A stretch of DNA of 37,231 bases from a virus. The translations under genes were made by a program, and so were the position numbers. Of the stretch, positions 1-29,693 are shown in pieces. The notes beneath the pieces were generated by a model. That model was not told where the DNA came from, did no database searches, and worked only from the letters and a program-made list of their open reading frames with translations. Every line of letters starts with the position of its first letter. Within the stretch, counting starts at the first letter, position 1. Where the stretch lies: IMG/VR virus record IMGVR_UViG_3300009431_000061, positions 1 through 37,231 of that record; one strand, written 5' to 3'.

Positions 1-839
1 GTGATCGTTCCATCATTATCTTCACCATCCATGGTTATAGTGTAGTCGACACCTGCAGCTCCGATACCGACAGTTAAACCTCCATCAGCAGTTACAGTAT
101 CTCCAGCGGTCAATGGATGTAAATTCGTACCAGTTCTTTGCCAAACGTCAGCAGGGATAGTCAGCCCGATCTCTGCTTCTCCACCACCCATATCTGTGAC
201 AGTGAAGTTATCACCTTGATCGAAAGTCAACGTACTCACATCGACTACTATCGGAACTCCATCTTTCTCCTTGACTGTAATCGCACCGCCAGCACCTTTA
301 TTCCCTACATAATACCAACCGTGGAGATAGATGCCTGTGGCATCTGGACAGGTGTCTTGGAAAGTCAGAATCCCAGACTCATAGTCGAATATCCAATCAG
401 AAGCATCCGTAGTTGGGATTTCTGTCACGTTATCCGATTCAAATAAACGGACTGCATACCCAGAGCCATACTTTGGAGGTACCCATCCCTTCTGTAGCAC
501 TCCCAGAACAGATGCATGCCAAGCCTTAGAATCTGCGACTGTTATATCCTTAGTGAGTAATAAACGCCCATCTCCTGGAGCTGGTATATAGCACTTGACT
601 ACAGCAGTAGTGGTCGCTGGAGGAGAGCCTGGTACAGCGTCTATCCACAAATCATCATTATGGATATTGATTCCTCCAGGATTCCCTTCCTCATAATACG
701 CTTTATCGGAAGTTGTCCTACCTATTGCTTTCAACTTCTTGAAGTTATCATCAATCTTGGTATCGTTAGTGATATCCGCAGAAGCGGTACCTGCTACCAA
801 GAGTCCTGACAGGATCAAACTTAATAGTTTTTTATACAT
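1..839 (-). CDS. Secreted phage fibre-like protein, partial (3' end outside window)
   Basis: The reading frame stays open to the window edge, so the C-terminus is missing; about 279 codons are visible. The first residues, MYKKLLSLILSGLLVAGTAS followed by A-D, form a textbook Sec signal peptide (Lys-Lys, hydrophobic core, A-S-A cleavage site). The start at 839 was chosen because GGAGGG lies six bases upstream; an in-frame ATG at 845 abuts that site and is less likely. The mature part is rich in Gly, Thr and Asp. It contains a WQRTGTNLHPLTAGDTV stretch typical of phage tail fibres that present repeated beta domains. It follows another signal-peptide fibre gene by 33 bases. No enzyme motif is seen. 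Fibre identity rests on composition and that stretch; the signal peptide is clear, but export itself is inferred. Confidence 0.75.
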   Translation of the reverse strand, partial: MYKKLLSLILSGLLVAGTASADITNDTKIDDNFKKLKAIGRTTSDKAYYEEGNPGGINIHNDDLWIDAVPGSPPATTTAVVKCYIPAPGDGRLLLTKDITVADSKAWHASVLGVLQKGWVPPKYGSGYAVRLFESDNVTEIPTTDASDWIFDYESGILTFQDTCPDATGIYLHGWYYVGNKGAGGAITVKEKDGVPIVVDVSTLTFDQGDNFTVTDMGGGEAEIGLTIPADVWQRTGTNLHPLTAGDTVTADGGLTVGIGAAGVDYTITMDGEDNDGTI

Positions 840-872
840 TTTCATCCCTCCATTTTATTTGATAATCTATCA

Positions 873-3017
873 TTACCATCCGAGCTCTCTTACTTGAGTT
901 ATACTCTTCGTATTATTCCGAATTGTTACTCTAACAATAATCATGTATCCCGAACTGGCTGTAGAGAAAATCCCGCATGTCCAACCCCAGTCATCTCCTG
1001 ATTGTGAAGTTCGACAACCATCTCCATCAGCACCTGTAAAAGTACCTGCAACATAGGCTGTCCCAAGATCTAACCAACCAGTCTGCGTAGGTAATTTAAT
1101 TTCAACGTTCACATCTCCTGAACCAATTGGATCAATATCGGAACCCACTAAGTTCGCAAATTCTAGCGAACCATTACTATGAGGAGTTCCTGCTTCATAG
1201 AATGCTCTATAGTAAACCTGATTAGATACGAACCCAGAATAATCTGCTCCAACCTGTTGTGAAGGATTGTATCCTACAGTGAAATCGATCGTCGGATAGT
1301 AGAGTCTTCCATTATATACCTGTGCCTGTCCATCTACTAAAGCTGTAGCAGAGACCCACTGTCCTGTAATTGCTCCAGGAACTAGGTCATAAGCACCTGC
1401 AGGCAACCTTCTGTTCTCATCATCCAAGTAATCATAAAGAGCTGTGGAAGTAGTTCCATAAGTATCAACTAAGTTATTCGCTGAAGCTGATTGCCGAGCA
1501 GTATAACTCCCATAAGGATCTCTTGGAGTCAAAGTTACTCGAGCATTAGTGCTTCTCGCACTCCCAGCAGTGATCGTGAGTACCTTATTCGTGACTGTCA
1601 TCGTCTCACCTATTGCTGGAGGATTCGAAAGTCCGCTTACAGCACCGTCTGTAGGAGTGATATTCCCGTTAGAAACCCCAGTGAGACTCGCGTAAGTCAA
1701 TGGTGAGGTTGTGTGATAAACGTTATCAAAACAATCACTACCGACAACACTTAAATCGAAGGTGCTATTCGTAGTATAAGATTGAACCCCTGAAAGATAC
1801 TTGACTTGCTTCGCATTCTCCACTAAAGTCGGTACCGTTACTGAAGGATTCGCTCCCGCATCATTATCGTAGAAGACTTCGTAACTAGCGGTGGTCTGCA
1901 CAGGTGCTATTCCAGAGTGTTCCATCGCAAAATAATTATATCCTTGAAGACAGTCTCCAGCTACGATTAACGCTGTTGCATTCCCCTTCTGCCAGAGTGG
2001 GAACGTATTATAATAAGCTACACTATCAACTCTAATATTCCCTGCAGCACCTAAAGCTGGAGGATAAGATTGAGCACCTGCTCGTTCGCCCTCATTGAAA
2101 GCTGCAGCTAAATCGAAGGTGTCATTCAACCCTCCATTAAGATACCAATCAAGATCTCCTTCATCCGCAGTATTGAACGTAGTTGCTTGATTCGGTGAAG
2201 CAAGATTGAAAGTCGCATCATTCACGATGTAATTGACGTTCGTTCCAGCAGGATCTCCTCCTTTATAACTAGCACTTCCTGCAGAGAGCCTTCCTGTATG
2301 CTTCGAAGTACCACTTGGTATCAGTGAATTCCCATCCATCGAAGAAGCATCAGAAGGAGCTAAGAAAGAGAACAAGTAATTCATATCATACAAAGCTTGG
2401 TTCGTCCCTGTAGAGTTAGTCCAATTCTTAATCCCGTCAGTCCAAGCTTTCGTCGCAGGTGCATTAGCGATAGGCATATCATCAGAACCTACTTGATCAA
2501 CAGCATCTCCCCAATCAATACCACCGTCTTCAACCAAAGCTTTCGTCCAAGCAGCACCGTTATAATAATACCACTGCGATTCTCCTTCAATCCATAATAA
2601 CATGTGATCTATCGCTACGAGTTCCTCCCAAGCACCGTTATCATAGTAATAAACATTATCCGCTGTCCAACCATTCCCTGATACAGAACAGACATAAGTA
2701 TCGTTCTGGACTGGTCCAACTGGGAGAGCAACCGAAGCATCCCATTGACTTATCGCAGAGATTAGATAGGTAGCACCGCTTCCTATTCCACCTCCACCAA
2801 CAGCCACCCAAGAAGCTGCAGTAGCGTCGTATAAGTATATCTTAGTCTCGTCTAGAACAACTCTTGCTGTTCCACCCGTAGCCCAAGCTTCTAAATCCGC
2901 AGAAGTATCACGAGGAGCCTTCCATCTTGGAGATGCTCCACCATGAGTTTGTCTAGCATAAGCAGCTGGACACAGCATCGCTCCTACTAGGATTAACGTA
3001 AGTAATTTCTTTATCAT
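873..3017 (-). CDS. Secreted large tail-fibre/adhesin-like protein (714 aa)
   Basis: A 714-residue protein starting with a Sec signal peptide (MIKKLLTLILVGAMLCPAAYA, with probable cleavage after A-Y-A). The cysteine in the hydrophobic core is preceded by Leu, so it is not a good lipobox. The first 170 mature residues hold short aromatic repeats of the kind Y-x-Y-(D/N)-x-x-x-x-W-(V/E/T), for example YLYDATAASWVAV, YYYDNGAWEEL and YYYNGAAWTKA. These are common in phage tail fibres. The rest is a long Gly/Ser/Thr/Asn-rich, beta-prone body without recognised enzymatic residues. AGGAGG stands eight bases before the ATG. It lies between a small membrane protein gene and a second signal-peptide fibre gene. 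A virion fibre or a secreted adhesin are both possible; a signal peptide is unusual for a virion protein. Confidence 0.75.
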   Translation of the reverse strand: MIKKLLTLILVGAMLCPAAYARQTHGGASPRWKAPRDTSADLEAWATGGTARVVLDETKIYLYDATAASWVAVGGGGIGSGATYLISAISQWDASVALPVGPVQNDTYVCSVSGNGWTADNVYYYDNGAWEELVAIDHMLLWIEGESQWYYYNGAAWTKALVEDGGIDWGDAVDQVGSDDMPIANAPATKAWTDGIKNWTNSTGTNQALYDMNYLFSFLAPSDASSMDGNSLIPSGTSKHTGRLSAGSASYKGGDPAGTNVNYIVNDATFNLASPNQATTFNTADEGDLDWYLNGGLNDTFDLAAAFNEGERAGAQSYPPALGAAGNIRVDSVAYYNTFPLWQKGNATALIVAGDCLQGYNYFAMEHSGIAPVQTTASYEVFYDNDAGANPSVTVPTLVENAKQVKYLSGVQSYTTNSTFDLSVVGSDCFDNVYHTTSPLTYASLTGVSNGNITPTDGAVSGLSNPPAIGETMTVTNKVLTITAGSARSTNARVTLTPRDPYGSYTARQSASANNLVDTYGTTSTALYDYLDDENRRLPAGAYDLVPGAITGQWVSATALVDGQAQVYNGRLYYPTIDFTVGYNPSQQVGADYSGFVSNQVYYRAFYEAGTPHSNGSLEFANLVGSDIDPIGSGDVNVEIKLPTQTGWLDLGTAYVAGTFTGADGDGCRTSQSGDDWGWTCGIFSTASSGYMIIVRVTIRNNTKSITQVRELGW

Positions 3018-3032
3018 TTTAATCCTCCTATA

Positions 3033-3305
3033 TTATTTTGCCGAATCTTGTTTATTCGAGTCGTCTCTCTTCTTTACTAAGAAATAAAAGTTGAACACGA
3101 GCGAAATAATTAACATAAAATCTTTAGCTTCTATCTTCTGGTCAAATGCCATCGCACAGAAAGTTAATCCAACCATCAAAGTAATAATCGCACGGACACT
3201 AGATGCCCATTCCGCTTTCTCTTTTAATCCCCAATAAACTAGAATGAGAATCACAATGAAAGGAGCGGTACCTTCTAATACATTCACTAGCACAGTCCAA
3301 TCCAT
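3033..3305 (-). CDS. Small membrane protein, holin-like
   Basis: The protein has 90 residues with three predicted membrane segments (about 6-26, 37-54 and 61-77) and a charged C-terminal tail (KKRDDSNKQDSAK). Three membrane spans plus a short charged tail fit the general look of class I holins, but no specific family is recognised. The start at 3305 (MDWTVLVN) is preferred over the in-frame TTG at 3317, because that TTG lies inside the GGAGG ribosome site that serves the ATG. It sits between two structural genes, and no endolysin gene is visible in the window, so a lysis role is only a suggestion. It could instead anchor or help assemble the exported fibres next to it. Confidence 0.6.
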   Translation of the reverse strand: MDWTVLVNVLEGTAPFIVILILVYWGLKEKAEWASSVRAIITLMVGLTFCAMAFDQKIEAKDFMLIISLVFNFYFLVKKRDDSNKQDSAK

Positions 3306-3318
3306 GATAACCTCCAAT

Positions 3319-3720
3319 TTAGCCTTTTTCTATGTTGACCCAAACTCTCCCACCAACTGCGAAATGTACTCTGATATCGTTGATAGATTTCGCTGTAAAG
3401 AACTTCTGCCAAGAAGATCCTTCTGTGATCTTCACGACTGGAGTCATGGAGGCTGAGTTGAACCTTACATCTACCTCACCTGCTTCAACATAGATATCTA
3501 CGTAATATGCTCCTGTATCGCTAACAGGCACAGGAATTGTAGAATCTACAATATAAGCTTCTGAGAGGAGAACAGGATTATAAGAGGGATCATCAGAAAC
3601 TAGTGTGACTCCTGCTGGTAAATTCGTGAAGAACCCTGATGTAATTACATCCTCATTGGGTGGGACTATGTAAGATCCCAACTGTTTGTTAATGTTCGTA
3701 CTATTCCTATACTTTGGCAT
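3319..3720 (-). CDS. Small beta-rich virion-like protein, unknown function
   Basis: A 133-residue protein with no recognised family. The composition (many Val, Ser, Thr, Pro, few charged residues, no cysteine) and the C-terminal half, with alternating hydrophobic residues (ISO: VYVDIYVEAGEVDVRF-like pattern near residues 72-88 and RVHFAVGGRVWVNIEKG at the end), suggest a beta-sandwich. Such small beta proteins are common as fibre or decoration subunits in phage tail operons. AAGGAGG precedes the ATG. It is the first gene downstream of the coiled-coil protein and just upstream of the holin-like gene. A structural role is inferred from neighbours only. Confidence 0.55.
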   Translation of the reverse strand: MPKYRNSTNINKQLGSYIVPPNEDVITSGFFTNLPAGVTLVSDDPSYNPVLLSEAYIVDSTIPVPVSDTGAYYVDIYVEAGEVDVRFNSASMTPVVKITEGSSWQKFFTAKSINDIRVHFAVGGRVWVNIEKG

Positions 3721-3732
3721 TGTGACCCTCCT

Positions 3733-4038
3733 TTATTTTTCGTCTTCCTCTTCTACGGTTTCTAAATGACTAAGCACTTCGTCCAAGTGTGAAGAAAGAG
3801 CTGTTGCCTGATTCACAAGATCTCGACATTTCTTACGAGTATTCCTCGCTACCGCTCTAGCTTCGACTGAAATAGTGTTCAGTTCTTTAACGAGACTCTG
3901 TGTAGTGAATTTGAAGTCATGGACTAAGCTAGAGACTTCTTCAGCGTGTAATTTAATCTTGTTCTGCATCCTTTCTCCTCTTCTATTATTAAAGTTGACC
4001 ACGAGTCGAGCAATCTCCCCGAAGGTTTGACTGCTCAT
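3733..4038 (-). CDS. Coiled-coil protein with an N-terminal TFGEI repeat unit
   Basis: The protein has 101 residues. After an N-terminal SSQTFGEIARL segment, nearly all of the chain (about 24-101) is helical, with heptad-like spacing and a very acidic end (VEEEDEK), so a coiled coil is likely. Two starts are plausible. One is 4038, with GGGGAG eight bases upstream. The other is 3969 (MQNKIK), with AGGAG five bases upstream, which would give 78 residues. The TFGEI unit is the third copy of a repeat whose first two copies lie upstream in another frame. The gene may therefore be the 3' remnant of a longer fibre protein, re-started after a one-base slip. No enzymatic motif is seen. Confidence 0.6.
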   Translation of the reverse strand: MSSQTFGEIARLVVNFNNRRGERMQNKIKLHAEEVSSLVHDFKFTTQSLVKELNTISVEARAVARNTRKKCRDLVNQATALSSHLDEVLSHLETVEEEDEK

Positions 4039-4091
4039 AACGGAAACTCCCCAAAGGTTTGTCCGTCAATACCCGTAATCTCCCCGAAGGT
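4012..4091 (-). repeat. Three direct repeats encoding TFGE(I/F), spaced 33 and 32 bases
   Basis: On the minus strand, ACCTTCGGGGAGATT starts at 4091, ACCTTTGGGGAGTTT at 4058 and ACCTTCGGGGAGATT again at 4026. Copies 1 and 2 encode TFGEI and TFGEF in one frame (open from 4121 to a TGA at 4035-4037). Copy 3 encodes TFGEI in the next frame, inside the coiled-coil gene. The 33-base and 32-base spacings explain the frame change: one base is missing between copies 2 and 3. Short T-(F/W)-G-E-I type repeats occur in phage fibre proteins. Confidence 0.7.
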
Positions 4092-4107
4092 CTTTTTATA
4101 ATATTCA

Positions 4108-4767
4108 TTATATCGCTTGCCTCAACTGTAAAGTTGAACAATCAAGACTGTAGTCCTTACCGTCTTTGTGTCCAACAGTAGTGATCGTCTCACTCTGATT
4201 GAATCTCACGATGTTATTGTTAACATCCCTAGCCCAGTTACAGAATTTCCAATGGTGATACTTAACCACCGAAGGAGGTACCCATTTCGTAAAATCAAAG
4301 ATGACTTGACCATTCGCCAACATGTTAAACGGCATGAATCTAGTACCTTGCCGATCTGGGTAGTCTACACCTGAGTTCGGATTAACATTCTTATACGGTG
4401 CCTTACGACGGACGTATTTCATTATTTCCATCGGGAGACCTTGTCCATCTAAGTACACTTTATTCTTGCTAATATCATCATCAGCGTGCTGTTTGGTCAT
4501 TATTCTGACTTTCACAGCTTGCCCTATATCCCCTATAAGTCTCGACCAACTTAACCCAACTGGATCATACTCGTAAAGAGCACCCTCAAGCAGATAGATA
4601 TAAGGCTTAATCATCGTTATCGGATACGTAGGTTCATACCCTGGACCTACAGGACCCTGAGGTCCAGTTGCACCCCGAGCACCGCTCTCCTGGACTCTCA
4701 CGACACCTCGCTCAGCAACCTTGATTACCAAGCGTTCTTCTAGAACCTGGATCTTTACATCACTCAT
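4108..4767 (-). CDS. Tail-fibre protein with a short collagen-like segment
   Basis: The protein has 219 residues. Residues 1-28 form a beta-rich lead-in and residues 29-43 are five Gly-X-Y triplets (GAR GAT GPQ GPV GPG). That is a short collagen-like stretch, typical of trimeric phage fibres and baseplate appendages. The remaining 170 residues carry aromatic, strand-rich segments and end in LQLRQAI. No receptor-binding fold can be named. The ATG overlaps the stop of the preceding BppU-N-like gene as ATGA, implying coupled translation. A trimeric fibre or baseplate appendage following two BppU-N-like proteins is consistent with a receptor-binding apparatus of the kind seen in phages of many hosts. 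Confidence 0.65.
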   Translation of the reverse strand: MSDVKIQVLEERLVIKVAERGVVRVQESGARGATGPQGPVGPGYEPTYPITMIKPYIYLLEGALYEYDPVGLSWSRLIGDIGQAVKVRIMTKQHADDDISKNKVYLDGQGLPMEIMKYVRRKAPYKNVNPNSGVDYPDRQGTRFMPFNMLANGQVIFDFTKWVPPSVVKYHHWKFCNWARDVNNNIVRFNQSETITTVGHKDGKDYSLDCSTLQLRQAI

Positions 4768-5114
4768 GGAGTTATCCTTCTCGTTATATCTTCCTCGAAG
4801 ACGAAATTCCCAGACATGAATGTAATAACTGTACCATCTGGTTTTACGTATTGCATATCATACCAATAACTTCCAGCAAGAGCATTCGCTTCAGCTGCTG
4901 TTAGTTGGAAGAGAGTTAAACCATCCGTAGGAGTCAAATGAGTATCCCAATCTTTCTTCAGCACAGCATCCACATCCGTATCAGTCTTATTCACCTTCAG
5001 AGTAAAGAATAATTGCCAACCTGTTATATCCTTAGGGTTATCATCATCATCAAGAAATTCTAGAGTCCGCTCATATGTGTCTCCTCTAAAAGCTTGTCTA
5101 TTTATTTTATTCAT
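4764..5114 (-). CDS. BppU N-terminal-domain-like baseplate/fibre protein
   Basis: The protein has 116 residues. The chain follows the pattern of the BppU-N family (baseplate upper protein, immunoglobulin-like): an early RGDTYERTLEF, then DITGWQLFFTLK, an acidic segment with a lysine (AVLKKDW), then LTAAEANALAGSYWYDMQ, and finally PDGTVITFMSGNFVFEEDIT. In characterised phages such domains attach receptor-binding proteins to the baseplate. This protein is only the single domain, so it may pair with the adjacent protein of the same type (5126-5515) or with the collagen-like fibre that follows. The latter gene overlaps it by four bases. Confidence 0.65.
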   Translation of the reverse strand: MNKINRQAFRGDTYERTLEFLDDDDNPKDITGWQLFFTLKVNKTDTDVDAVLKKDWDTHLTPTDGLTLFQLTAAEANALAGSYWYDMQYVKPDGTVITFMSGNFVFEEDITRRITP

Positions 5115-5125
5115 CGCATACTCCT

Positions 5126-5515
5126 CTAATCTTCAACCGATTTGACAATTTCAATAATGAAATCTTTTGTTTTATAGACTCTAGTACTCCCACTAGGTTG
5201 AAACTCGAATTCACAGAATAAAGAACCTGCGTCTGCTAAATCTGTGGTGTTCAGAACTAATTTCAACACTCCTGCAGAAGCCTGTGATTCGTCCCAATCC
5301 AGAGAAGCTTGATCTTTAGAGATCACGTAACGATCTGCGTTCTTCCTCGTCTTCGCTCTAAAAGTGAACGTCGCATTCTGTAGATTCCAGAGCTCTGCTA
5401 AATAAGTATCTAAATAGAAGTTCAATGGAAGTTGGATATTACTTCCTTCTTTGACAGTCAAATACTGGAAGGGTTGTTGTACCAAACTCCCATCTGTGGG
5501 TACTATGAATATCAT
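5126..5515 (-). CDS. BppU N-terminal-domain-like protein, second copy
   Basis: A 129-residue protein with the same general plan as the next gene: a conserved hydrophobic strand (NATFTFRAKTRKNADRY), an aspartate-rich turn, then LKLVLNTTDLADAGSLFCEFEF and a final strand ending FIIEIVKSVED. The sequence is divergent from its neighbour, but the order of elements matches an immunoglobulin-like BppU-N domain. It starts with an ATGA overlap on the preceding gene. A baseplate or fibre linker role is inferred from family resemblance and position. The two tandem genes look like an old duplication. Confidence 0.5.
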   Translation of the reverse strand: MIFIVPTDGSLVQQPFQYLTVKEGSNIQLPLNFYLDTYLAELWNLQNATFTFRAKTRKNADRYVISKDQASLDWDESQASAGVLKLVLNTTDLADAGSLFCEFEFQPSGSTRVYKTKDFIIEIVKSVED

Positions 5516-6210
5516 GTAATCCTCCTTATATCAGCATAGTTCGGTAGATATTTATTTAACCTACGGACTATATGATTCGTAACTCTATCCCAGAAATGGT
5601 CTTTAAGGAATATGTCCTTATACTCTCTGAAAATCCTGAACCTCAAACAATGATAGTTATCATAATGCTTATGAAACACAGTATTGAACGAGAGAACCAT
5701 CTTTTCCATTTGTTCTTTATTAGTTACTTCCTTTAATAAGGTGTCTGTTATCACATTATGTGGCATCGCAGAGTATTCCACAACCACTCCTGGTATATAC
5801 CAGAACAACTTCTTCAAGAGATCTCCAATGATTCCTGCTTTTGCTACAGTATCAAACGCAAGATAAACATACCTTGATCCCCATTCCCGATGTCCATCAC
5901 AAGAACTGAATGGAAGATAGCCACGGTGTACTAATAAACGGATGAGTGGTTCTACCTTCGGTTCTATATTATACCAAAAGTGATCCGAATGTGGTGAAAC
6001 TGTAATGGCTCGAACATTGCCCTGCTCATCATAACCCGAATTCACCCTCCCATTTGCGTCTCTTTGATTGCTGAACACGTGTGAATACATCCACCCTAAC
6101 GACCCTTCGGCAAATCGCTTTTCGGCTCTCTCAGAGCGTCTCACAGCGTAATCGTATTGCCTTAGAGGAGCTTGTTCCACGATCGCTATAGGATTCAGGA
6201 GATCTAACAT
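5512..6210 (-). CDS. Unknown protein with an SSCDGH motif
   Basis: The protein has 232 residues, no signal peptide and no membrane span. The centre holds a distinctive stretch, LVHRGYLPFSSCDGHREWG, followed by an alternating hydrophobic strand (RYVYLAFDT). SSCDGH-like motifs of this kind appear in small uncharacterised phage and bacterial proteins, and the Cys, Asp and His could bind metal. The C-terminal third is basic and aromatic (HKHYDNYHCLRFRIFREYKD). The ATG at 6210 is chosen over an in-frame TTG at 6216, because GGGAGG stands seven bases before the ATG. It is coupled to the U32-like gene upstream and the BppU-N-like gene downstream. Its job is unknown; it may be an accessory to the neighbouring Fe-S enzyme. 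Confidence 0.55.
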   Translation of the reverse strand: MLDLLNPIAIVEQAPLRQYDYAVRRSERAEKRFAEGSLGWMYSHVFSNQRDANGRVNSGYDEQGNVRAITVSPHSDHFWYNIEPKVEPLIRLLVHRGYLPFSSCDGHREWGSRYVYLAFDTVAKAGIIGDLLKKLFWYIPGVVVEYSAMPHNVITDTLLKEVTNKEQMEKMVLSFNTVFHKHYDNYHCLRFRIFREYKDIFLKDHFWDRVTNHIVRRLNKYLPNYADIRRIT

Positions 6211-7163
6211 CTGCAAGCCTCCCAGTTATCTTCTTTTAAACATTCCTTCTCATAAAGCTCTTTACAATATTCACACTCTAAACAATGATGGTCACACGTA
6301 TGATCCAACCGCTCCCGTACGAATTCTTCTGGGATACCGTTCTCAAATTGTATTCCACAGAAACTCTTAGTCCGAGAAGGGCTAACCCAACTCTTCAAGA
6401 GTTCTGAGATCGAATCGTTGTCCATACTTCTTGTTGCGAACTTCACGATATCAACTTCTGTCAAATACTCCAAGAACTCTTTGGTGAATCCCATCCTAGT
6501 TAAATTAAGCCAACGAAGATCGCCAACCAACTTCTTGTAACAAGCCAAACCACAGAAGTCTCCAACATGTGCTTCGTTCTTCCGACCACAGATATCTTCA
6601 CCAAAAAGGTAATTACTAAACCCGTTTTTCATAAATAAACAATTCTCATTCGCAATCAACTTAACCTGGATCCTCCACCATTTAACAGCATGCATGAACT
6701 CGTGATCGAACATCCGTTGACTACTAAGGTTCACACACTGGAGATCACCCATTCTGAACTCTCTGGTAAGATCTCCTATGGAATCGATCGCAGGATCTGC
6801 TGCAGTCGATAGATGGAACTCTAACCCGAGGTCTCTGAACAACTCTACTTGGTAATGATTCAGAACTGTAATCGCTTTAAGATTCAGGTGATCTAAGAGT
6901 AAGAATTCTGACAGAATCTCTTCTGATTCAACCAAGGTATCAATTAACGTATGATTAAACAAAATGTTCCCCTGGATCCCATAAGTATTGAGCTTCGCCA
7001 TCGTTTCCAGTTCCTTCTCCCAAGTTAACCGTTCACCCAACACCCAAGTAGGACTGAAGTAATACGAGTGTATATAGGGTCGGTAGAGGTTCAAGAGATC
7101 GAAGAAATCTTGACCTGTTCTGTTATAACCCACCGAGAATTTATTCAGAAGTTCCTGCTTCAT
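6204..7163 (-). CDS. Peptidase U32-like (UbiU/UbiV/RlhA-type) Fe-S protein
   Basis: A 319-residue protein that resembles the peptidase U32 superfamily, which includes UbiU/UbiV, RlhA and TrhP. Matching elements are an N-terminal barrel part with YGIQGNILFNHTLID, the core signature LIANENCLFMKN (compare the family NE-x-CL motif), a later DICGRKNE and FCGLACYKK cysteine region, the strand DIVKFATRSMDND (compare the family fKxxGR segment), and a Cys-rich end with C-x3-C-x2-C-x2-C (CDHHCLECEYC). Studied members are not generally proteases but hold Fe-S clusters and support oxygen-independent hydroxylation of rRNA, tRNA or ubiquinone precursors. Here the gene sits in a fibre operon, directly after a 52-aa secreted peptide, so a modified peptide, protein or RNA are all possible substrates. 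The family call is by eye and not certain. Confidence 0.55.
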   Translation of the reverse strand: MKQELLNKFSVGYNRTGQDFFDLLNLYRPYIHSYYFSPTWVLGERLTWEKELETMAKLNTYGIQGNILFNHTLIDTLVESEEILSEFLLLDHLNLKAITVLNHYQVELFRDLGLEFHLSTAADPAIDSIGDLTREFRMGDLQCVNLSSQRMFDHEFMHAVKWWRIQVKLIANENCLFMKNGFSNYLFGEDICGRKNEAHVGDFCGLACYKKLVGDLRWLNLTRMGFTKEFLEYLTEVDIVKFATRSMDNDSISELLKSWVSPSRTKSFCGIQFENGIPEEFVRERLDHTCDHHCLECEYCKELYEKECLKEDNWEACRC

Positions 7164-7321
7164 TAAAACTCCGTCCCCATGAAGAGAACCTCGCCACCGT
7201 CTGGTTCTCCGTTCCCTTCATAACCAATTCCTGTGAATTTCGTCTCATAAGTCGAATCACCCGCATACGCAGGAGGTATCATTAACCCACAAATCATCAA
7301 TAAAGCTATCAATTTTTTCAT
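7163..7321 (-). CDS. 52-aa peptide with signal peptide
   Basis: This is a very short gene with a strong ribosome site (GGAGGG six bases before the ATG at 7321). Its first 20 residues, MKKLIALLMICGLMIPPAYA, are a clear Sec signal peptide. The predicted mature peptide is only 32 residues (starting GDSTYETKF), rich in Gly, Glu and Asp, ends in GTEF and has no cysteine. Longer in-frame readings upstream overlap the previous gene and lack the ribosome site. The stop overlaps the start of the U32-like gene (TAATG), so the two are co-translated. No family is recognised. It could be an exported virion peptide, a substrate of the adjacent enzyme, or the leftover N-terminus of a larger secreted fibre. 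Confidence 0.6.
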   Translation of the reverse strand: MKKLIALLMICGLMIPPAYAGDSTYETKFTGIGYEGNGEPDGGEVLFMGTEF

Positions 7322-7334
7322 ATTAACCCTCCAT

Positions 7335-7649
7335 TTATGCATAGAGTGCTTGTGATAAATTGAACCAACCTGAAGTGGTACCTGTCCTGCCAACTCCTAT
7401 AAATACGTAAAGATACCCGTCACTCTCTACAGCTGTATACTTGTAGAAAGTCTGCCCATAACTAGGAGAAGCAGGAAAAGAAGTCCCTTTATCTGGTCTA
7501 AAGCTTGAGATCTGTACACCAGCTCCAGGAGTTTTCTCTATGATAGTATCTGTCTTAAAAGTATGCTCACTCATGATAGCGAGTTCACCTACTTCAAGAT
7601 ATTGATCCTTTAATAACCAAGATAAAAATTTCGCTATAAGTTTTTTCAT
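7335..7649 (-). CDS. Small fibre-domain protein ending in GWFNLSQALYA
   Basis: The protein has 104 residues. The N-terminus is amphipathic and basic (MKKLIAKFLSWLLKDQ). The C-terminal 50 residues form a compact domain with FPASPSYGQTFYKY and LYVFIGVGRTGTTSGWFNL. The same domain, with the same last residues (QA-x-YA), makes up most of the 65-aa protein at 17156-17353. Domains of this kind (short aromatic beta units, with a final W) are common in tail fibres. It begins with an ATGA overlap on the secreted fibre gene, so it is likely co-translated with it and may cap or chaperone that fibre (inference). Confidence 0.6.
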   Translation of the reverse strand: MKKLIAKFLSWLLKDQYLEVGELAIMSEHTFKTDTIIEKTPGAGVQISSFRPDKGTSFPASPSYGQTFYKYTAVESDGYLYVFIGVGRTGTTSGWFNLSQALYA

Positions 7650-9184
7650 TGTATTTCCTCCAGTACGAATTTGTATTTTTTACCGTCTGGTGAAAGGAGC
7701 ATAAGCCCACCATTCTCCCAGTCTTCTGTAATTCTCCACTTATTCATGAACCCTAAATCACCAGCTTCTATGTTCACCCCATAGATATTGCCAAAACGAT
7801 TACCTGGAGCTCCTATGTCTCCATTGCCGTCTCCAGAAGGATCGATATCATCACACTCCAGAGCAGCGAACTCAACACTACTGGAAGTCATAACATTTTG
7901 ATCCATATCATAAAGTTCATTCGCACCCTGACCTGTGTTGACTGTTAAGAAGGTGACCGCACTAGCCGTAGTTAAGTGCTGTCCTGTGTTGTAAGTTAAC
8001 TGAGTGTCACCTATCGCATTCGGAGTTACGCTTAACGTTACTGTTGAATTCGCTCCACCATCTGTTCGTGTGATCGCAGTACCTGCAGTTAAAGCACGTT
8101 CAGCTGAAAGATCTCCTGTGTTCGATATAGTCACGAAGGTTGCATCTGCAGGAGCCGTAGGATCTCCAATTTCGATTCCTCTAAAATTCACGAATACGCC
8201 TGAAGTCGTAGAGTCTGTGATAAGTAATGGTTTATTAATCTGTCCAACGCTCGAAGGTGCAGTATTCGTTAGAGCTCCCGCTACAGTTGGAGATAAGAAG
8301 TACGTATCTCCTTCGACCAACCCTGAGAGTGTATCACAATAACCAGCGAAGAGGATCGTAAAATTATTAGGATCCGTGACATAAGAGACAATGCCAACTA
8401 CTTCTGCATTAGCGACATTATCGGCTTGAGCTTCTGTTAACTCACTCGCAATAGAATCCCATCTTAAGACATCACCTGCAGTAAACCCATGAAGAGCCTG
8501 AGCTACCGCCATTGTGATCGCATCCATAGAAACAGTACCAGAAACCGATGCCCACTCCATACTAGCACCGTTCCATCTCACAAAGTAGTTCGTTGTAGGA
8601 GCATTATTCATAGCTAGCTTCGGCTCTGATACTCCATCATCTTTGACTGATAGATCGAAAGAACCGTCTAAACCAAGCGTGACATTATCGTATTTAACTG
8701 CGATGAGTCCTGGAATAGTGATGTCGATCGCATCTCCCTCAAGAGAGCTGTTCAGCATCCCAGGAATGATCCCAGCGTCTTTAACATATAAATCACCGCC
8801 ACCATCTAATCCGATACTCGCATCATCATACTTGACATCGAGGTCTAAGACCTCATTGGCTCCTGGGTTGATGATCGTCTTATCGAGACCGTCTCCCGCA
8901 GTCAACTTATCATCGAGATAGCTAGGAGTCGTATCAGCTGCAGTTACCCCTACGAATAAATCAGAGGAGCTTCCAATGACTACCCAAGTGGCACCGTTCC
9001 AACCGTAGACTGCTCCTACAGAAGTGACGTAACGGACATCCCCAACCTGATTCGCAAAAGTAGGGAGGTCTACCACATTGGTTACATATTTCCTCCAACG
9101 TTGATCTCCATACTTAGCCCAATCTGCATGGACAGTGCTTGTCAAAAACATTAACATCAAACCTATTGCAATGACTTTTCTCAT
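7646..9184 (-). CDS. Secreted tail-fibre protein with internal repeats (512 aa)
   Basis: The 512-residue chain starts with a Sec signal peptide (MRKVIAIGLMLMFLTSTVHA, then D). The body is recognisably phage-fibre: a YGWNGATWVVIGSS unit and two copies of a repeat (VKYDDASIGLDGGGDLYVKD and VKYDNVTLGLDGSFDLSVKD). Next come an aldolase-free beta domain with HGFTAGDVLRWD, a RALTAGTAITRTDGG segment and a C-terminal NRFGNIYGVNIEAGDLG region like those of fibre tips. The start overlaps the stop of the fourth radical SAM gene (ATGA), so enzyme and fibre are translated as a coupled pair. GGAGG is well placed. It may be either a virion fibre routed to the membrane or a secreted adhesin, and it is a candidate substrate of the enzyme cassette. 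Confidence 0.8.
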   Translation of the reverse strand: MRKVIAIGLMLMFLTSTVHADWAKYGDQRWRKYVTNVVDLPTFANQVGDVRYVTSVGAVYGWNGATWVVIGSSSDLFVGVTAADTTPSYLDDKLTAGDGLDKTIINPGANEVLDLDVKYDDASIGLDGGGDLYVKDAGIIPGMLNSSLEGDAIDITIPGLIAVKYDNVTLGLDGSFDLSVKDDGVSEPKLAMNNAPTTNYFVRWNGASMEWASVSGTVSMDAITMAVAQALHGFTAGDVLRWDSIASELTEAQADNVANAEVVGIVSYVTDPNNFTILFAGYCDTLSGLVEGDTYFLSPTVAGALTNTAPSSVGQINKPLLITDSTTSGVFVNFRGIEIGDPTAPADATFVTISNTGDLSAERALTAGTAITRTDGGANSTVTLSVTPNAIGDTQLTYNTGQHLTTASAVTFLTVNTGQGANELYDMDQNVMTSSSVEFAALECDDIDPSGDGNGDIGAPGNRFGNIYGVNIEAGDLGFMNKWRITEDWENGGLMLLSPDGKKYKFVLEEIQ

Positions 9185-16583: not shown

Positions 16584-17141
16584 TTATCTTTTACTTCTTC
16601 GACAATCACCATGACAACTTGAATGGCAACTGCTATGACATTCGTTAATATAAACATACTCAGCTCCAGGTGCTACACCTAACACCGTCGAGTTATGAAT
16701 CACAACTCCATCCACAATGATCTCCACTACATCCCGAGTGCTCACAATGTTCTCGATCAAATCAGCAGCATTCGGAGGTGCTATATAATCTGGAGTATCT
16801 GGTGGAAAACTCGCTGAACGAGTTCCGATAACATCGACTGAAGTAACTGTCCTGTTGTATTGCCAACTACCATTATTCAGTTGTCTCCTACAACTCTCGT
16901 ATTTCCTCAGAAGATTGTATTTGTACACTAAACCATCCCCGTCAGAGTACTCATCTGCATCTACTTGCTCTCCTTGTGCGATAGATCTTGAGATCTGCGT
17001 GATCGCAGCTTCCAAGGTAATCGAAGGAGTGATCGTCCCTGTAGTCGAGGCTATGTGCACTGCATTGAAACTCGACAGGAGACCATTGATTGCGGACTTG
17101 GCACTAGTCCAGTCCGCTGCTGCTACTAATCTTACAGACAT
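16584..17141 (-). CDS. Virion-like protein with a C-terminal Cys/His repeat tail
   Basis: The protein has 185 residues. The first 165 look like a phage fibre or baseplate accessory protein, with hydrophobic strands (VVEIIVDGVVIHNS) and a helical N-terminus. The last 18 residues form a striking tail, C168-HSS-C172-HSS-C176-HGD-C180-RRSKR: four cysteines exactly four residues apart, three followed by His, ending in a basic patch. The codons of the repeat units differ (AGC AGT versus TCA AGT; TGC versus TGT), so the repeat is kept at protein level rather than being a fresh DNA duplication. The tail could bind metal, form cross-links, or be modified by the radical SAM enzymes encoded just downstream. 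GGAGG is well placed before the ATG. The fibre role is inferred from neighbours. Confidence 0.7.
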   Translation of the reverse strand: MSVRLVAAADWTSAKSAINGLLSSFNAVHIASTTGTITPSITLEAAITQISRSIAQGEQVDADEYSDGDGLVYKYNLLRKYESCRRQLNNGSWQYNRTVTSVDVIGTRSASFPPDTPDYIAPPNAADLIENIVSTRDVVEIIVDGVVIHNSTVLGVAPGAEYVYINECHSSCHSSCHGDCRRSKR

Positions 17142-17155
17142 AATTTAACCTCCTA

Positions 17156-17353
17156 TCATGCATAAACTGCTTGTTTTAAATTGAACCACCCATCAGTAGT
17201 ACCAACTTCACCAACTCCAATAAAGACGAACAATGCTTTGAGATCAGTTCGATAGAACTTCTCTGCAGGCATCGGTGTCGGAGGGAAAGCTGCTCCAGAA
17301 GGAGTATACTGTCTCCAGGTGGTACCTTTCTTCATACGGTATAAACCTTGCAT
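17156..17353 (-). CDS. 65-aa fibre-domain protein, paralogue of the 104-aa protein
   Basis: Almost the whole protein is one domain: FPPTPMPAEKFYRTDLKALF, then VFIGVGEVGTTDGWFNLKQA, then VYA. The same domain, with the same ending, forms the C-terminal half of the protein at 7335-7649. The DNA of the last 70 bases is also visibly similar between the two genes. The two copies have the same orientation and lie on the two sides of the enzyme cassette. Such small aromatic units act as building blocks of phage fibres. GGAGG precedes the ATG. Confidence 0.6.
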   Translation of the reverse strand: MQGLYRMKKGTTWRQYTPSGAAFPPTPMPAEKFYRTDLKALFVFIGVGEVGTTDGWFNLKQAVYA

Positions 17354-17367
17354 AATGATACCTCCTA

Positions 17368-17688
17368 TTAAGCTTCGTCACCATTAACTGTAATTGTCAT
17401 CCTACCATTCGTAGAATACATACGGATACTCTCACCTTCCTCAAGAGTGATTCCTGCAACCACAACGAAGCTGTCCTTCGCTGGAATCTCTCCCAAGAAA
17501 ATCGTGTTGTCCGCTCCAGGTGAACCTGCTGCAAGAATCTGATAGAGAATGAACTCATCCGCATTCGCAGGATCCGTATTACAGATTACTATACTCGAGA
17601 CTACAGCTGATTTACCAACGGGCACCTGATATACTGTTCCTGTAGTTGCTGCTGCTGGTCTATCTTGACCTAAAATTTTAGCTGCCAT
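17368..17688 (-). CDS. Small beta-rich virion protein
   Basis: The protein has 106 residues. The pattern MAAKILGQDRPAAATTGTVY, then VPVGKSAVVSSIVICN, GITLEEGESIRMYSTNG and a final NGDEA is often seen in small phage structural proteins. Those are usually called tail or decoration proteins of beta-sandwich fold. There is one cysteine, no signal peptide and no catalytic residue. GGAGG precedes the ATG. It lies between a fibre gene and the 65-aa domain gene. A peripheral virion component is likely, but its exact place in the particle cannot be given. Confidence 0.55.
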   Translation of the reverse strand: MAAKILGQDRPAAATTGTVYQVPVGKSAVVSSIVICNTDPANADEFILYQILAAGSPGADNTIFLGEIPAKDSFVVVAGITLEEGESIRMYSTNGRMTITVNGDEA

Positions 17689-17713
17689 TTCGTTCCTCCT
17701 TCTTGTATGTTAT

Positions 17714-18520
17714 TTATGCACCCATCATTAAAAACGCACTTCTTATTCCAGATAAAGATCCTTCGCCACCCAAGTTCAAGAAAGGTCTAGCATCAGTGAT
17801 ATCTCCTGTATCTATGGTAGTCTGTCCTACTGTGAGAGTGATCTCTGCTAGAACGATCTTCCCAGAATGATCAGGTGGTGTTGGAGAAGGATCTTCTGCT
17901 CCTAGCTCTATCAATAAATTCCCACCACTATCGATGTAAGCCAAATCAATCCTCGGATTCACCAAAGGAGCAGCTATCGCAGGAGAATTTTGAGCAGCTA
18001 CATTAATCCGACTTGCTCCATAACTACACCAACCACTCGTACAACGAACATACATTGCAGGAGATTCCAGAGGCAAACACTTCAAGAAATCTGCCATTGA
18101 TAATGGAGAAGACCTCTCAGCATATTCGAATCCAGTTAAAGTAGGACCAGCGTAGATACATTTCCCCACAACAAGGTAGTCTGGATCTACTGATGGATCT
18201 GCAACCGCTTTGATATCCATATACCAAGATGACAGTGCTTGCCAGTCCCAACTAAGTACCACATAAGGAGTAGCTGGTGCTACACCTACAGTGTAGTTAG
18301 ACTGTGTCTCAACACGAGCCTGTTGTGTACCATCCTGGATCTCACAGATCAAAGGTGAGAGCTGGGCATTCGAATTATCGACCTTCGTCAACAATCCTCC
18401 TGTATAAATCCCGCATGGGATGATACTTTGGTTTCTTTTATCAAAATGATCTGAATTCAGCGGATCGTAATACTTAAACTGAATGTCCTGATTGCCTTTA
18501 TTAGTACCTGTTCCACCCAT
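17714..18520 (-). CDS. Tail fibre/structural protein
   Basis: A 268-residue protein. The N-terminus is Gly/Asn-rich (MGGTGTNKGNQDIQFKYYDP). The middle holds strands with Cys-containing loops (VRCTSGWCSYG), and the C-terminal part has KIVLAEITLTVGQTTIDTGD followed by ITDARPF, a combination commonly found in phage fibre and baseplate-appendage proteins. No enzymatic motif is seen. It follows the gpI-like gene by 12 bases, as expected for the fibre that attaches to the baseplate wedge through that protein (P2 gpI to gpH order). AGGAGG precedes the ATG. Confidence 0.6.
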   Translation of the reverse strand: MGGTGTNKGNQDIQFKYYDPLNSDHFDKRNQSIIPCGIYTGGLLTKVDNSNAQLSPLICEIQDGTQQARVETQSNYTVGVAPATPYVVLSWDWQALSSWYMDIKAVADPSVDPDYLVVGKCIYAGPTLTGFEYAERSSPLSMADFLKCLPLESPAMYVRCTSGWCSYGASRINVAAQNSPAIAAPLVNPRIDLAYIDSGGNLLIELGAEDPSPTPPDHSGKIVLAEITLTVGQTTIDTGDITDARPFLNLGGEGSLSGIRSAFLMMGA

Positions 18521-18532
18521 TTTAATCCTCCT

Positions 18533-19915
18533 TTATACTTGTCTTATCACATCGATTGTTATTTCCAATACCGCAGCACTAGGTTTATCCAAATCTGGGA
18601 AGAAAGACTCTATCACCAGATCTCCAGTAGCTGTATGGTAAATACCGAGCTCACTCGCATCGGTCAACTCTACACCAGCTGGAACTGTTGCTCGGAAAGT
18701 TATTTTATTCTCCGTTAACGTATAACCCGTAACTGTACCAGTCCAGATAATATTCGCCAGATCCGTATCTGTCGCTTGTGGTGTCGCCCCTTTATTACCG
18801 TCCCCAATCTTAATTGTAGTTAACTCAGACAACATCGACTCAAACGATTGATCTAAGTAGATCTCATCTGGTGCAACCTGATCTAAATAGATATCATCAG
18901 GAGGTTGTTGATCGAAGAATAATTTAGAGACTGCCCAGTTATTTGTCAAGCAAGTCTTTATCTGACTGTCTACTATTTCATAAGACTGGTAGTTCTCATA
19001 TGTCATCGCATAAAGCTCAAGAAAATAATGTGGTACTGTATTTAATGGAGTATATTCAGCCACGAGCTCTGCAAGTAAATCCCAGTATTCGTGCACAAAT
19101 AACTTGTTGTAATATCCTTGGAAATAAATCAACCGATCTAAATTAATTATCAGATCAAAATGTGGTGATTTGAATCCGAGACCACCATCGAAATGCCAAG
19201 GTGCTGAAGTACCGCCACCTCCAGCTGGGGTAGTCTCATCCATGAAATATCCATCATCTATGTGTAATGCTTCTGGAGTTTCCCAACCACCGAATTCTGG
19301 TGGTATCCCAGAATGTCTATGGGCAGGCTGTCTCTCAAAATTAAGATAATCTCTCGTCCATAGATCATACAAAGTAACATTCAATCCAACTAAGTAAAAT
19401 GCAATGTCCAGAACTCTATAGGTTCCTTTGGCTTTATACATCTCAATAGCCATCTTGAGCTGATTCCTTAATTGCTTAGTTGTAGCATATTCTGCGTTCT
19501 TCAGTTTGTAACCAATCAAAGCAGCTAGATGTCCTAAGTATCTTTTTGGACACGTATCAATATCTATAAGAGGACCTAGAGTCCCAATCCTACAAGCAAC
19601 GGAATTCACGAGCTGACTGACTGCATGTAGATAATCCATCATGACTGCCGACTTCCTGAACTTCCTCGGCAGCATCTCTCGAAGATCCCAGCATTCCGTA
19701 CATTGCGTAACATCGCCTTCCACAGAGGGTGAAAAAGAGCCTACAATGGTAACTTCCATCAGATCCGAGTAAACTCGGTGGACGTTAGTCCATCTTCCGA
19801 TTTCTTGGAGAGGTCGGATAGTACACTTCCTTCCAGTCTCTGTGAGCAGACTATCGAAGTCTTTCCCAAAGACGATGCGACCTTTCTCAGTTATGTACGG
19901 AACTTGAACACTCAT
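18533..19915 (-). CDS. P2 gpI-like baseplate/tail-fibre connector
   Basis: The protein has 460 residues. The segment at about 120-188 has the Tail_P2_I (phage tail protein I) pattern: TCPKRYLGHLAALIGYKL, a basic helix with LRNQLKMAIEMYKAKGT, then a helix and GLNVTLYDLW. In P2-like phages gpI links the baseplate wedge to the fibres. The C-terminal 120 residues are a separate beta-rich domain (KITFRATVPAGVELTDASEL, then GIYHTATGDLVIESFFP) like the N-terminal domain of collar-type tail fibres, so the protein seems to be a connector fused to a fibre root. A short repeat (DDIYLDQ, DEIYLDQ) forms the linker. It lies next to gp6-like and fibre genes, which supports the call. Confidence 0.75.
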   Translation of the reverse strand: MSVQVPYITEKGRIVFGKDFDSLLTETGRKCTIRPLQEIGRWTNVHRVYSDLMEVTIVGSFSPSVEGDVTQCTECWDLREMLPRKFRKSAVMMDYLHAVSQLVNSVACRIGTLGPLIDIDTCPKRYLGHLAALIGYKLKNAEYATTKQLRNQLKMAIEMYKAKGTYRVLDIAFYLVGLNVTLYDLWTRDYLNFERQPAHRHSGIPPEFGGWETPEALHIDDGYFMDETTPAGGGGTSAPWHFDGGLGFKSPHFDLIINLDRLIYFQGYYNKLFVHEYWDLLAELVAEYTPLNTVPHYFLELYAMTYENYQSYEIVDSQIKTCLTNNWAVSKLFFDQQPPDDIYLDQVAPDEIYLDQSFESMLSELTTIKIGDGNKGATPQATDTDLANIIWTGTVTGYTLTENKITFRATVPAGVELTDASELGIYHTATGDLVIESFFPDLDKPSAAVLEITIDVIRQV

Positions 19916-19916
19916 A

Positions 19917-20207
19917 TTAAGGCTCCACAGTTAAAACACCATCATAAGCGATATATATCGCTCCACCAGAACGATTATAAACTCGAACAAATTGTGCATT
20001 GGTAACGTGTAGGTAGATATTCGTTAAGAAATTCTTCCCAGCTTCTTCCATGAATGCACATTCATTACCACCATTCACAATCATAACTTCTACGTTGTTT
20101 GGGTGATAAATATTATGTACAACCCATTCAATTGCAGCAGCTGGCTGTATATCGATATAGCTACCTGCACCTACACTTGCAAATCCTTGTATGACCTCTC
20201 CAACCAT
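19917..20207 (-). CDS. 96-aa beta-rich protein
   Basis: No family is recognised with confidence. Alternating hydrophobic residues (YIDIQPAAAIEWVVHNIYH, VEVMIVNGG, QFVRVYNRSGGAIYIAYDGV) suggest an all-beta domain of the size of decoration or adaptor proteins. The composition resembles the beta proteins at 17368-17688 and 30967-31380. GGAGG precedes the ATG, and its stop is one base from the start of the gpI-like gene. A structural role is inferred. Confidence 0.5.
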   Translation of the reverse strand: MVGEVIQGFASVGAGSYIDIQPAAAIEWVVHNIYHPNNVEVMIVNGGNECAFMEEAGKNFLTNIYLHVTNAQFVRVYNRSGGAIYIAYDGVLTVEP

Positions 20208-20243
20208 TATATTCCTCCTATACTAAGTTTCTCATGACTGAGT

Positions 20244-20645
20244 TTAAGTGAACAACACTCTCGTGTCAATCTCAAGTCTGTCTCCGTAAAATTTTAATTC
20301 ATAAGGAGTCGTAAACTTATGAATCGCTATCAGCTTCCCAGAACTATCGGCACTCGTTGCTAAGAAGCACCCATAGATCGTCCCGAACTGCTCCAAGCCA
20401 ATTTCATATTCCACCGTGGGATACACATTCAGTTCATCGGTGGTGATCCAGTTAGACGGAGTGAGTTCCTTTCTTGCATAAGAAGAAGCCGAAGGTTCGA
20501 CAATATCTCCAAGACTCAAGTCATTTAATATTGCATCATCTGGATTATTCGCCAACAAGCCTAGATAGAGCTTGGGATTCTGTGATAAATTACGGAAATA
20601 AATTCCACCCAGATTCGCTGATCCTTCTTTTGTCCATATACCCAT
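20244..20645 (-). CDS. Baseplate-associated virion protein (133 aa)
   Basis: The chain has a pattern seen in a widespread small phage structural protein: LYLGLLANNP, then SYARKELTPSNW, then YGCFLATSADSSGKLIAIHKF and an end with FYGDRLEIDTRVLF. Such proteins are usually annotated as tail or structural and may fit between baseplate and fibres. There is no signal peptide or catalytic motif. GAGAGG precedes the ATG. It lies downstream of a small membrane protein gene and upstream of gpI-like. Confidence 0.55.
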   Translation of the reverse strand: MGIWTKEGSANLGGIYFRNLSQNPKLYLGLLANNPDDAILNDLSLGDIVEPSASSYARKELTPSNWITTDELNVYPTVEYEIGLEQFGTIYGCFLATSADSSGKLIAIHKFTTPYELKFYGDRLEIDTRVLFT

Positions 20646-20647
20646 TA

Positions 20648-20896
20648 TTAACCTCTCATCATTAGCATTGACCCCAGGATATTCAACACAGGGACAATGA
20701 ACCAGTAAAGACTAGTTGCTCTCCAACCACTCATAATAAATAAAACTAATCCAATAATTGTCGGTACGATCGCCAACCAACCACCGAATAAAATCCCGAG
20801 CATAGCTTTAGAATCCCCACTACTAATACTGGAGATTACCATTATCAGACATCCAATATTCGTCAAACCCATAATAATGTAGCCTGTTATCTTCAT
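20648..20896 (-). CDS. Small integral membrane protein in the baseplate block
   Basis: The protein has 82 residues with three predicted membrane segments (about 4-25, 31-55 and 60-80) joined by short loops. It has no cleavable signal peptide and few charges. GGAGG precedes the ATG, and its stop is two bases from the next start. A membrane protein inserted between gp6-like and distal fibre genes is unusual. A holin is possible by size and topology, as is a factor that holds assembling baseplates at the membrane. There is not enough sequence signal to choose. Confidence 0.6.
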   Translation of the reverse strand: MKITGYIIMGLTNIGCLIMVISSISSGDSKAMLGILFGGWLAIVPTIIGLVLFIMSGWRATSLYWFIVPVLNILGSMLMMRG

Positions 20897-20904
20897 GTAT
20901 CCTC

Positions 20905-22611: not shown

Positions 22612-22621
22612 AATTTACTCC

Positions 22622-23029
22622 CTAGGATTCATTATCCATTGATCTACTATACATAAAATCAAAGGTAAATACTTGTTCGTATCCGATTATATAAGCTCTA
22701 AGTTTAATATAAACCTCTCCTCGCTCAGGATTCGATCGGACATCAATGTTCTCGACCTTCACTCGAGGTTCCCATCTCTCAATTGCATCTCTGAAATCTT
22801 CAGCGAAAACTGTTCTAAGATGTTCATCATCAATCCTCTCAAACAACAGAGAGTGTGGATTTGTGGCAAAGTTTCTTATCATCACTCTCTCACCCATAAT
22901 AGTTAGCAGTATATTCTCCAATGAAGCGTAGACTGCCTCTACGTTCGTGACCAAAGAGACTGCTCCATCCGCACCAATCTTTAAATCTGGATGAAGGTCT
23001 GACCATATTGTTCTCTCTGTTACCGCCAT
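22622..23029 (-). CDS. Baseplate wedge protein, gp25-like
   Basis: A 135-residue protein, about the size of T4 gp25 (132). It has the family plan SLVTNVEAVYASLENILLTI, then GERVMIRNFATNPHSLLFE, then a W-E-P-R motif (residues 86-89; the conserved EPR that gives gp25/IraD-like proteins their signature), followed by VKVENIDV. gp25 binds the wedge and is thought to help start sheath assembly. It has a good AGGAG site. It lies directly below the promoter candidate at 23129-23157 and before the gp6 gene. No lysozyme residues are expected, despite the old name of the domain. Confidence 0.92.
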   Translation of the reverse strand: MAVTERTIWSDLHPDLKIGADGAVSLVTNVEAVYASLENILLTIMGERVMIRNFATNPHSLLFERIDDEHLRTVFAEDFRDAIERWEPRVKVENIDVRSNPERGEVYIKLRAYIIGYEQVFTFDFMYSRSMDNES

Positions 23030-23123
23030 TATATTCTCCTAAAGTATCGGGAGGAGGTGAAGGCTGACGTTATTGGTACTGCCAACATACGTACATGTCT
23101 TCTAAGTCGGTGGATTCGAGGTT

Positions 23124-23140
23124 GGAACATTATCTGTTCC
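23124..23140. repeat. Inverted repeat (GGAACA-N5-TGTTCC) over the -10
   Basis: A perfect six-base dyad with a five-base centre overlaps the -10 hexamer of the promoter above; a weaker GGT/ACC pair outside it extends the symmetry. A dyad on a -10 could be a repressor site. It could also be a hairpin in an RNA from upstream. There is no T-run, so it is not a simple terminator. Confidence 0.45.
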
Positions 23141-23157: not shown

Positions 23158-23174
23158 ATCCCCCTCCCAAATTC

Positions 23175-26222: not shown

Positions 26223-26237
26223 ACCTGAGTCCTTCTA

Positions 26238-29683: not shown

Positions 29684-29693
29684 TTAACACCTC

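Follow-up and report, generated by a model that had tools for sequence, protein, structure and literature searches.

Three tail-fibre genes and a gene for a small, predicted secreted peptide, all lying within positions 1-9184 of a 37,231-base virus record (the window, by which we mean the whole stretch of DNA analysed), begin with N-terminal segments that the sequence strongly indicates to be real signal peptides of the Sec/signal peptidase I type. Tailed phages, fibres included, are taken to assemble in the cytoplasm; with particle construction normally confined to the cell interior, export signals on fibres are unexpected. Among the options listed by an earlier note on this DNA, the reading that we consider best, with a probability of roughly 45%, is that these fibres pass through the inner membrane, undergo maturation in the periplasm and attach to the tails at a late stage, probably at lysis.

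Genomic context of the signal-bearing genes

The window is a linear record without end repeats from an uncultured bacterial virus, and all its 48 called genes are on the minus strand. PHROGs and Pfam matches delineate a contractile-tail module in its upper half (16584..36944, minus strand), comprising a sheath (31413-33017), a tube, a T4-type hub (28964-29683), a gp5-like spike (23447-24655), a PAAR tip, gp25, a gp6-like wedge and signal-less fibre genes. In the lower third, fibre genes are interspersed with genes for radical-SAM and other enzymes. The signal-bearing fibre genes share their strand with the tail module at 16.6-37 kb, which places them in a late structural region together with baseplate genes.

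No capsid or terminase gene was recognised in the window, and the only head-type match was that of 26238-27080 to a PHROG named PmgG-like head morphogenesis. The fragment may therefore come from a contractile injection system instead of a phage, a reading that remains only because head genes are absent from it. The presence of an AAA+ ATPase (Cis15) in the cluster is one eCIS criterion given in PMC12210884; an AAA match was seen in none of the 35 genes scanned with Pfam, out of the 48 in this incomplete fragment. A defence-system library gave no match for the 8 proteins compared with it. Single-protein searches of viral contigs with gene 2, 6204-7163, gene 1, 18533-19915 and 20905-22611 recovered no close relative of this phage, and the relatives of gene 1 discussed below were obtained via an alignment-based search.

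A small protein bordering the tail module (16584-17141) ends in the C-terminal tail CHSSCHSSCHGDC, which looks like a modification or metal-binding tag. Within the fibre region, the signal-less gene at 4108-4767 encodes a short collagen-like stretch, GATGPQGPVGPG, and the adjacent 4764-5114 and 5126-5515 weakly match the N-terminal part of BppU (E 0.07 and 8e-4, respectively), reminiscent of baseplate upper proteins.

Detection of Sec signal peptides

Signals were detected using a home-made, rule-based scorer that considers a basic n-region, an uncharged hydrophobic core and an AxA-type cleavage site. A score of 6.9 or more was reached by 4 of the 48 called genes, all within 1-9184, namely 3-845 (gene 1; 7.94, or 7.64 from the start at 839), 873-3017 (gene 2; 7.72), 7163-7321 (8.12) and 7646-9184 (gene 4; 6.91), with the fifth-ranked gene, a membrane protein, scoring 5.09. 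The predicted cleavage motifs are ASA^DI in gene 1, AYA^RQ in gene 2, AYA^GD in 7163-7321 and VHA^DW in gene 4, and each of the four N-termini displays the basic n-region, hydrophobic core and AxA-type site typical of Sec/signal peptidase I substrates. None of the four has a lipobox with a cysteine at +1, the hallmark of Llp/Cor-type superinfection-exclusion lipoproteins, and on this ground a lipoprotein reading was rejected.

Among the 791 start codons of the window that are followed by 50 open codons, 7 score 6 or more; six of these are starts of the four genes, and the remaining one is an opposite-strand stray at 739. In control sets from other phage loci, 5 of 12,252 internal starts, serving as decoys, and 10 of 1,402 first starts scored at least 6.9. 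If the decoy rate is applied, the chance of observing 4 of 48 is 5e-9; with the rate for first starts of the other loci, it is 4e-4. The chance that all four would cluster among the 13 genes of 1-9184 is 0.004.

Shine-Dalgarno sites of the GGAGG type precede all four starts (for example, AGGAGG in gene 2, GGAGGG in 7163-7321 and CGGAGG in gene 4), and in none of the four genes does a start codon with such a site occur between the signal and the body. With good sites at the called starts and no usable start past the signal, mis-chosen starts were discarded as an explanation. In gene 1, the Shine-Dalgarno spacing is better for 839 than for 845, in agreement with the start chosen by the earlier note. 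That the pattern is an artefact of wrong starts, or of hydrophobic N-termini that are not signals, appears extremely improbable: although the scorer is not SignalP, the ribosome sites are good, the AxA motifs are present, the signal of gene 1 abuts its domain at an exact junction, and the arrangement recurs in other phages with host-type variation (LFSQ^N in L167; L and G numbers denote other loci and records compared). The Sec signal peptides which the earlier note had assigned to the four genes are thus borne out by the scores (6.91-8.12), the sites and the controls, and its coordinates hold. Three of the four are fibre genes; the product of 7163-7321 is a small, predicted secreted peptide without a fibre body.

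The four signal-coding stretches do not resemble each other more than codon-shuffled controls do, except for a single borderline pair, which reached 21 where the 95% level was 18 and the maximum 23. Being essentially unrelated, these DNA segments are not copies of one cassette, and spread of a signal cassette by duplication was accordingly rejected.

Apparent addition of signals to a conserved fibre pair

Gene 1 is an open reading frame cut by the contig end, with 281 codons visible (3..845, minus strand; start at 839 favoured). Its predicted signal peptide, MYKKLLSLILSGLLVAGTASA^D (777..839, minus strand), is followed by an N-terminal connector-like fibre domain of the phrog_9417 family (276..776, minus strand; PHROG E 3.5e-20; AlphaFold model with pLDDT 78.7) that starts at the cleavage site. 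An alignment with phiCbK gp74 and its counterparts from Caulobacter phage C1 and Sinorhizobium phage Phosso begins at residue 2 or 3 of these proteins and enters gene 1 at residue 24-25, directly past ASA^D. Residues 24-190 of gene 1 span the whole domain, with 26-37% identity to members from cultured phages and about 50% to those of L086 and L087. The family invariants E30, W128, Y132, G135 and Y156 (mature numbering) are all kept, which argues for a kept structural role of this domain.

The domain was found in at least 566 of 599 pattern-matched IMG/VR stretches among the matches listed, and 54 cultured-phage records match it. A signal upstream of it was seen in none of the 80 IMG/VR relatives kept from the matches listed, a set which was not dereplicated, as was also the case for the other 80-locus set (a single phage seems to account for L020, L022, L023 and some more), and in none of the five aligned cultured-phage sequences. 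Thus, among the sequences compared, the signal-before-domain arrangement occurs only in gene 1 of the window. Given that the domain starts at the cleavage site and that the relatives are signal-less, the signal appears to have been added at the junction; as it sits exactly before the domain start, its cleavage would restore the usual N-terminus of the family. Of the signal-bearing genes, gene 1 thus provides the most pointed evidence.

A structure search with the domain recovered no PDB match at 0.001, and the viral matches were the phrog_9417 family itself; for want of a PDB relative, we infer its docking role from its position and gene context. In Atu_ph07, two gene 1 relatives are encoded 2-3 genes from an annotated tail-fibre gene. 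The virion data given for this phage in PMC6102473 include detection of all tail-fibre proteins and virion-rich clusters such as CDS 284-329, and the two gene 1 relatives appear to fall within that cluster. In Table 2 of PMC3556154, phiCbK gp74 is missing from the eight proteins detected in phiCbK virions, which speaks against a virion role.

Gene 2, recognised as an open reading frame and through homology, encodes a fibre protein of 714 residues (873..3017, minus strand) with the predicted signal peptide MIKKLLTLILVGAMLCPAAYA^R (2955..3017, minus strand). Its C-terminal fibre module (residues 208-714; 876..2396, minus strand) is shared with signal-less homologues (jumbo-phage contigs), showing 59% identity to L086:8179-9981 and 52% to L087:8224-9993 among 23 hit lines. 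In L086, L087, L088 and L090, a signal-less gene 2 homologue stands immediately before a gene 1 homologue, the order being the same as in the window. L154 encodes a single protein with a gene-1 type domain near the N-terminus and a gene-2 type module at the C-terminus, a fusion consistent with the N-terminal connector and distal module of fibres. The huge-phage records LR756500, LR756502, LR756501 and LR756508 also match gene 2, and in these four loci no signal was detected on the matches; LR756501 has a marginal score of 5.96 on another ORF. Taken together, genes 1 and 2 seem to be pre-existing fibre genes to which signals were added. The AlphaFold model of gene 2 residues 160-714 (pLDDT 80.1) is beta-rich and does not support an outer-membrane barrel; its Ig-like matches, with a query TM-score of at most 0.18 among the best 50 listed, were treated as uninformative.

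Gene 4, the small putative secreted peptide and the radical-SAM neighbours

Gene 4 (7646..9184, minus strand) encodes a fibre protein of 512 residues with the predicted signal peptide MRKVIAIGLMLMFLTSTVHA^D (9125..9184, minus strand) and a fibre repeat region of the NTGQGANELYDMDQN type (residues 382-445; 7850..8041, minus strand), relatives of which were collected by pattern match. A gene 4 relative is encoded by 118 of the 122 pattern-matching stretches; 80 were kept, 12 of which are cut at the 5' end, and signals are found in 2 of the other 68 (L003 and L041). The repeat is also present in chromosomal contigs, for instance in L178, where the Woesearchaeota protein that carries it has a signal-like N-terminus, and lambda Lom, as described in PMC12309495, is a signal-bearing outer-membrane protein encoded between tail and fibre genes. 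Both observations favour a scenario in which the products are secreted adhesins or other cargo with borrowed fibre domains, or host-derived surface proteins, and are neither virion parts nor receptor blockers. We consider this improbable, as genes 1 and 2 constitute a recognisable phage fibre pair rather than host proteins, and late structural runs enclose the signal-bearing genes.

The gene at 7163..7321 (minus strand) specifies a 52-residue peptide, with a 20-residue predicted signal and 32 mature residues, for which Pfam returned nothing at 0.01. Directly after it, 6204-7163 encodes a 319-residue cysteine-rich protein (13 Cys) with no Pfam or NCBIfam match, which could be a modifying enzyme of the 52-residue peptide. 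Four adjacent radical-SAM genes (9181-13293) lie directly upstream of gene 4, one of which (9181-10131) overlaps it by 4 bases. The nearest models to another, 11256-12518, are those of DynA/sulfatase-maturase (E 1.5e-31, far below cut-off), and it also has a SPASM match. In other phages, radical-SAM genes (L087:11594-12903 and L172:623-1510, one with a B12-binding domain) are found near signal-less fibre pairs.

The proximity of these genes to gene 4 favours the idea that export serves modification, an option also raised by the earlier note, or oxidative folding, be it through disulfides, glycosylation or the action of the neighbouring radical-SAM enzymes on the Sec-unfolded chain. The richness in N-x-S/T of the L003 fibre and of L041:1717-3594, where the observed count was reached in 13/500 and 2/500 shuffles, points in the same direction. 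However, the window proteins have no excess of N-x-S/T and few cysteines. Further, a radical-SAM motif scan detected nine ORFs in seven loci, none of them in the pieces initially retrieved for the six other loci with signals (L003, L004, L041/L166, L167, L168 and L181; L187-L192 lay outside the scan). Hence, this option finds no support in the window, and we assign it a low probability.

Signal-bearing fibres in other phages

Fibre-like proteins with predicted signal peptides were found in the six other records named above, which belong to viruses unrelated to that of the window and in which ORFs were picked longest-first, without a gene finder; these records give no prevalence, as the relatives were picked by homology to the window fibres. 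The gene 4 relative L003:8735-10450 is one of these. Reading of neighbourhoods yielded L004:18852-20141 and a run of signal-bearing genes in L041 (L041:412-1707, 1717-3597, 3935-5197 and a small one). It also gave a fibre of 1,544 aa (L167:7763-12397), L168:9473-11146 and 11169-12392, with a further signal-bearing 976-residue stretch in the same phage (G003, with two neighbouring signal-bearing fibre genes and a distant third one), and L181:5518-6942.

Several of these loci also encode virion genes: L003 has a portal gene, L168 encodes a terminase, a portal and a major head protein, and in L181 a major head protein accompanies a P22 portal. In L167, a siphophage, the tape measure and a virion structural gene are located just upstream of the signal-bearing fibre, and no second large fibre gene was found in the remainder of the contig, the tail-tip genes of which could still bind receptors. 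We also noted that L003:8735-10450 contains 21 N-x-S/T sites versus 14.3 expected; L003 is possibly an archaeal virus with a glycosylated fibre.

L041, L167 and L168 have related fibre bodies, at 56% and 38% over parts of their length. Of the five loci with the L041 fibre, signals are present in L041 itself, L167 and L168 and absent from L169 and L170, which seem to represent a single phage. In L167, the signal terminates in LFSQ^N, and its start has an AT-rich sequence instead of a Shine-Dalgarno site, features of the Bacteroidota style; since ends of this type (FSQ^N, for instance) escape the AxA scorer, the signal at L167:7763 was called by eye. Two adjacent L041 fibres share about 130 nearly identical bases, from the signal end through a 40-residue connector, and differ in their signal cores and bodies. 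This combination of a shared piece past the predicted cleavage site with exchangeable bodies looks like that of virion fibres.

Proposed export and late docking of the fibres

The signal-bearing fibres are very probably exported, and we lean, with less assurance, towards the mature proteins ending up on the virion. The evidence for a virion role is moderate, and comes from the kept connector domains, the gene order, the runs of signals and the L167 contig, in which no second large fibre was seen. In the proposed mechanism, the signal peptide would carry the unfolded fibre chain through the inner membrane via the host Sec pathway, whereupon a cut by signal peptidase I would give the mature fibre the N-terminus of its signal-less relatives. 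The fibre would then fold and assemble in the periplasm and be added at a late stage to particles made in the cytoplasm, most probably as lysis opens the inner membrane. Late docking follows if both export and the virion role hold, because a periplasmic fibre can meet a cytoplasmic particle only once the inner membrane opens. Runs of signal-bearing neighbours, as in L041 and G003, are to be expected if partner subunits need joint export. In T4, long tail fibres are reported to attach, slowly, to fibreless particles without fibritin (PMC3004832). Against this reading, fibre-like genes of the window such as 4108-4767 and 18533-19915 have no signal, so that export would concern some of its fibres only. 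Moreover, we know of no phage fibre that is assembled in the periplasm.

The main rival, which we consider unlikely but take seriously, is that the fibres are secreted non-virion proteins that bind the receptor, in the periplasm or as soluble proteins after release, and block superinfection or the sticking of progeny to debris. Such masking requires that the proteins be exported to where the receptors are produced, and with T5 Llp a phage protein that blocks a receptor from the periplasm is already known. However, the receptor blockers known to us are small lipoproteins, and the four signals lack a lipobox. In addition, the conserved connector-like domain retained by gene 1 would be superfluous for a decoy, and the L167 contig shows no other large fibre.

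Extending the preferred reading of export followed by late docking, we tentatively propose that some tailed phages infecting diderm bacteria make their receptor-binding fibres outside the cytoplasm, through joint Sec export of the fibre subunits, periplasmic maturation and mounting only on cell opening, and that this may have arisen more than once via host-type signals added to ordinary fibre genes. If the main fibres are indeed exported first, the periplasm would constitute a second assembly compartment, and this could account for a failure of such fibres to form under cytoplasmic expression. Until lysis, sticky receptor-binding parts would be kept away from the particles of the phage itself, or on the side of the receptor. 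As regards annotation, signal-bearing fibre genes of uncultured phages may pass for host genes or membrane proteins. The recurrence with a siphophage-type tail and P22-type portals renders the proposal testable, given a cultured case.

Comparison with known systems

The phrog_9417/phiCbK gp74 family of jumbo and phiCbK-like phages has the same domain as gene 1, but its members compared here are signal-less. Unlike the fibres described here, those of T4 have no signal peptide and fold in the cytoplasm, with the chaperones gp57A and gp38. The T4 long tail fibres are akin to the proposed scheme in their late, separable attachment (PMC3004832). The T5 Llp-like exclusion lipoproteins are, as the products here would be, phage proteins sent through the inner membrane. 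Llp-type proteins are lipidated and small, whereas the fibre products of the window have signal peptidase I sites and lengths of 281 (cut), 714 and 512 residues. Signal peptides are ordinary on phage lysis and exclusion proteins and on Lom. The lambda Lom gene is, like the genes studied here, a signal-peptide gene in a tail/fibre region (PMC12309495), but encodes an outer-membrane beta-barrel where the window products are fibres. We found no report of signal peptides on phage fibres in open-access full text, subscription journals and preprints being beyond this scope. What is new here, as judged from sequence, is the presence of ordinary tail-fibre families with an added, predicted export step.
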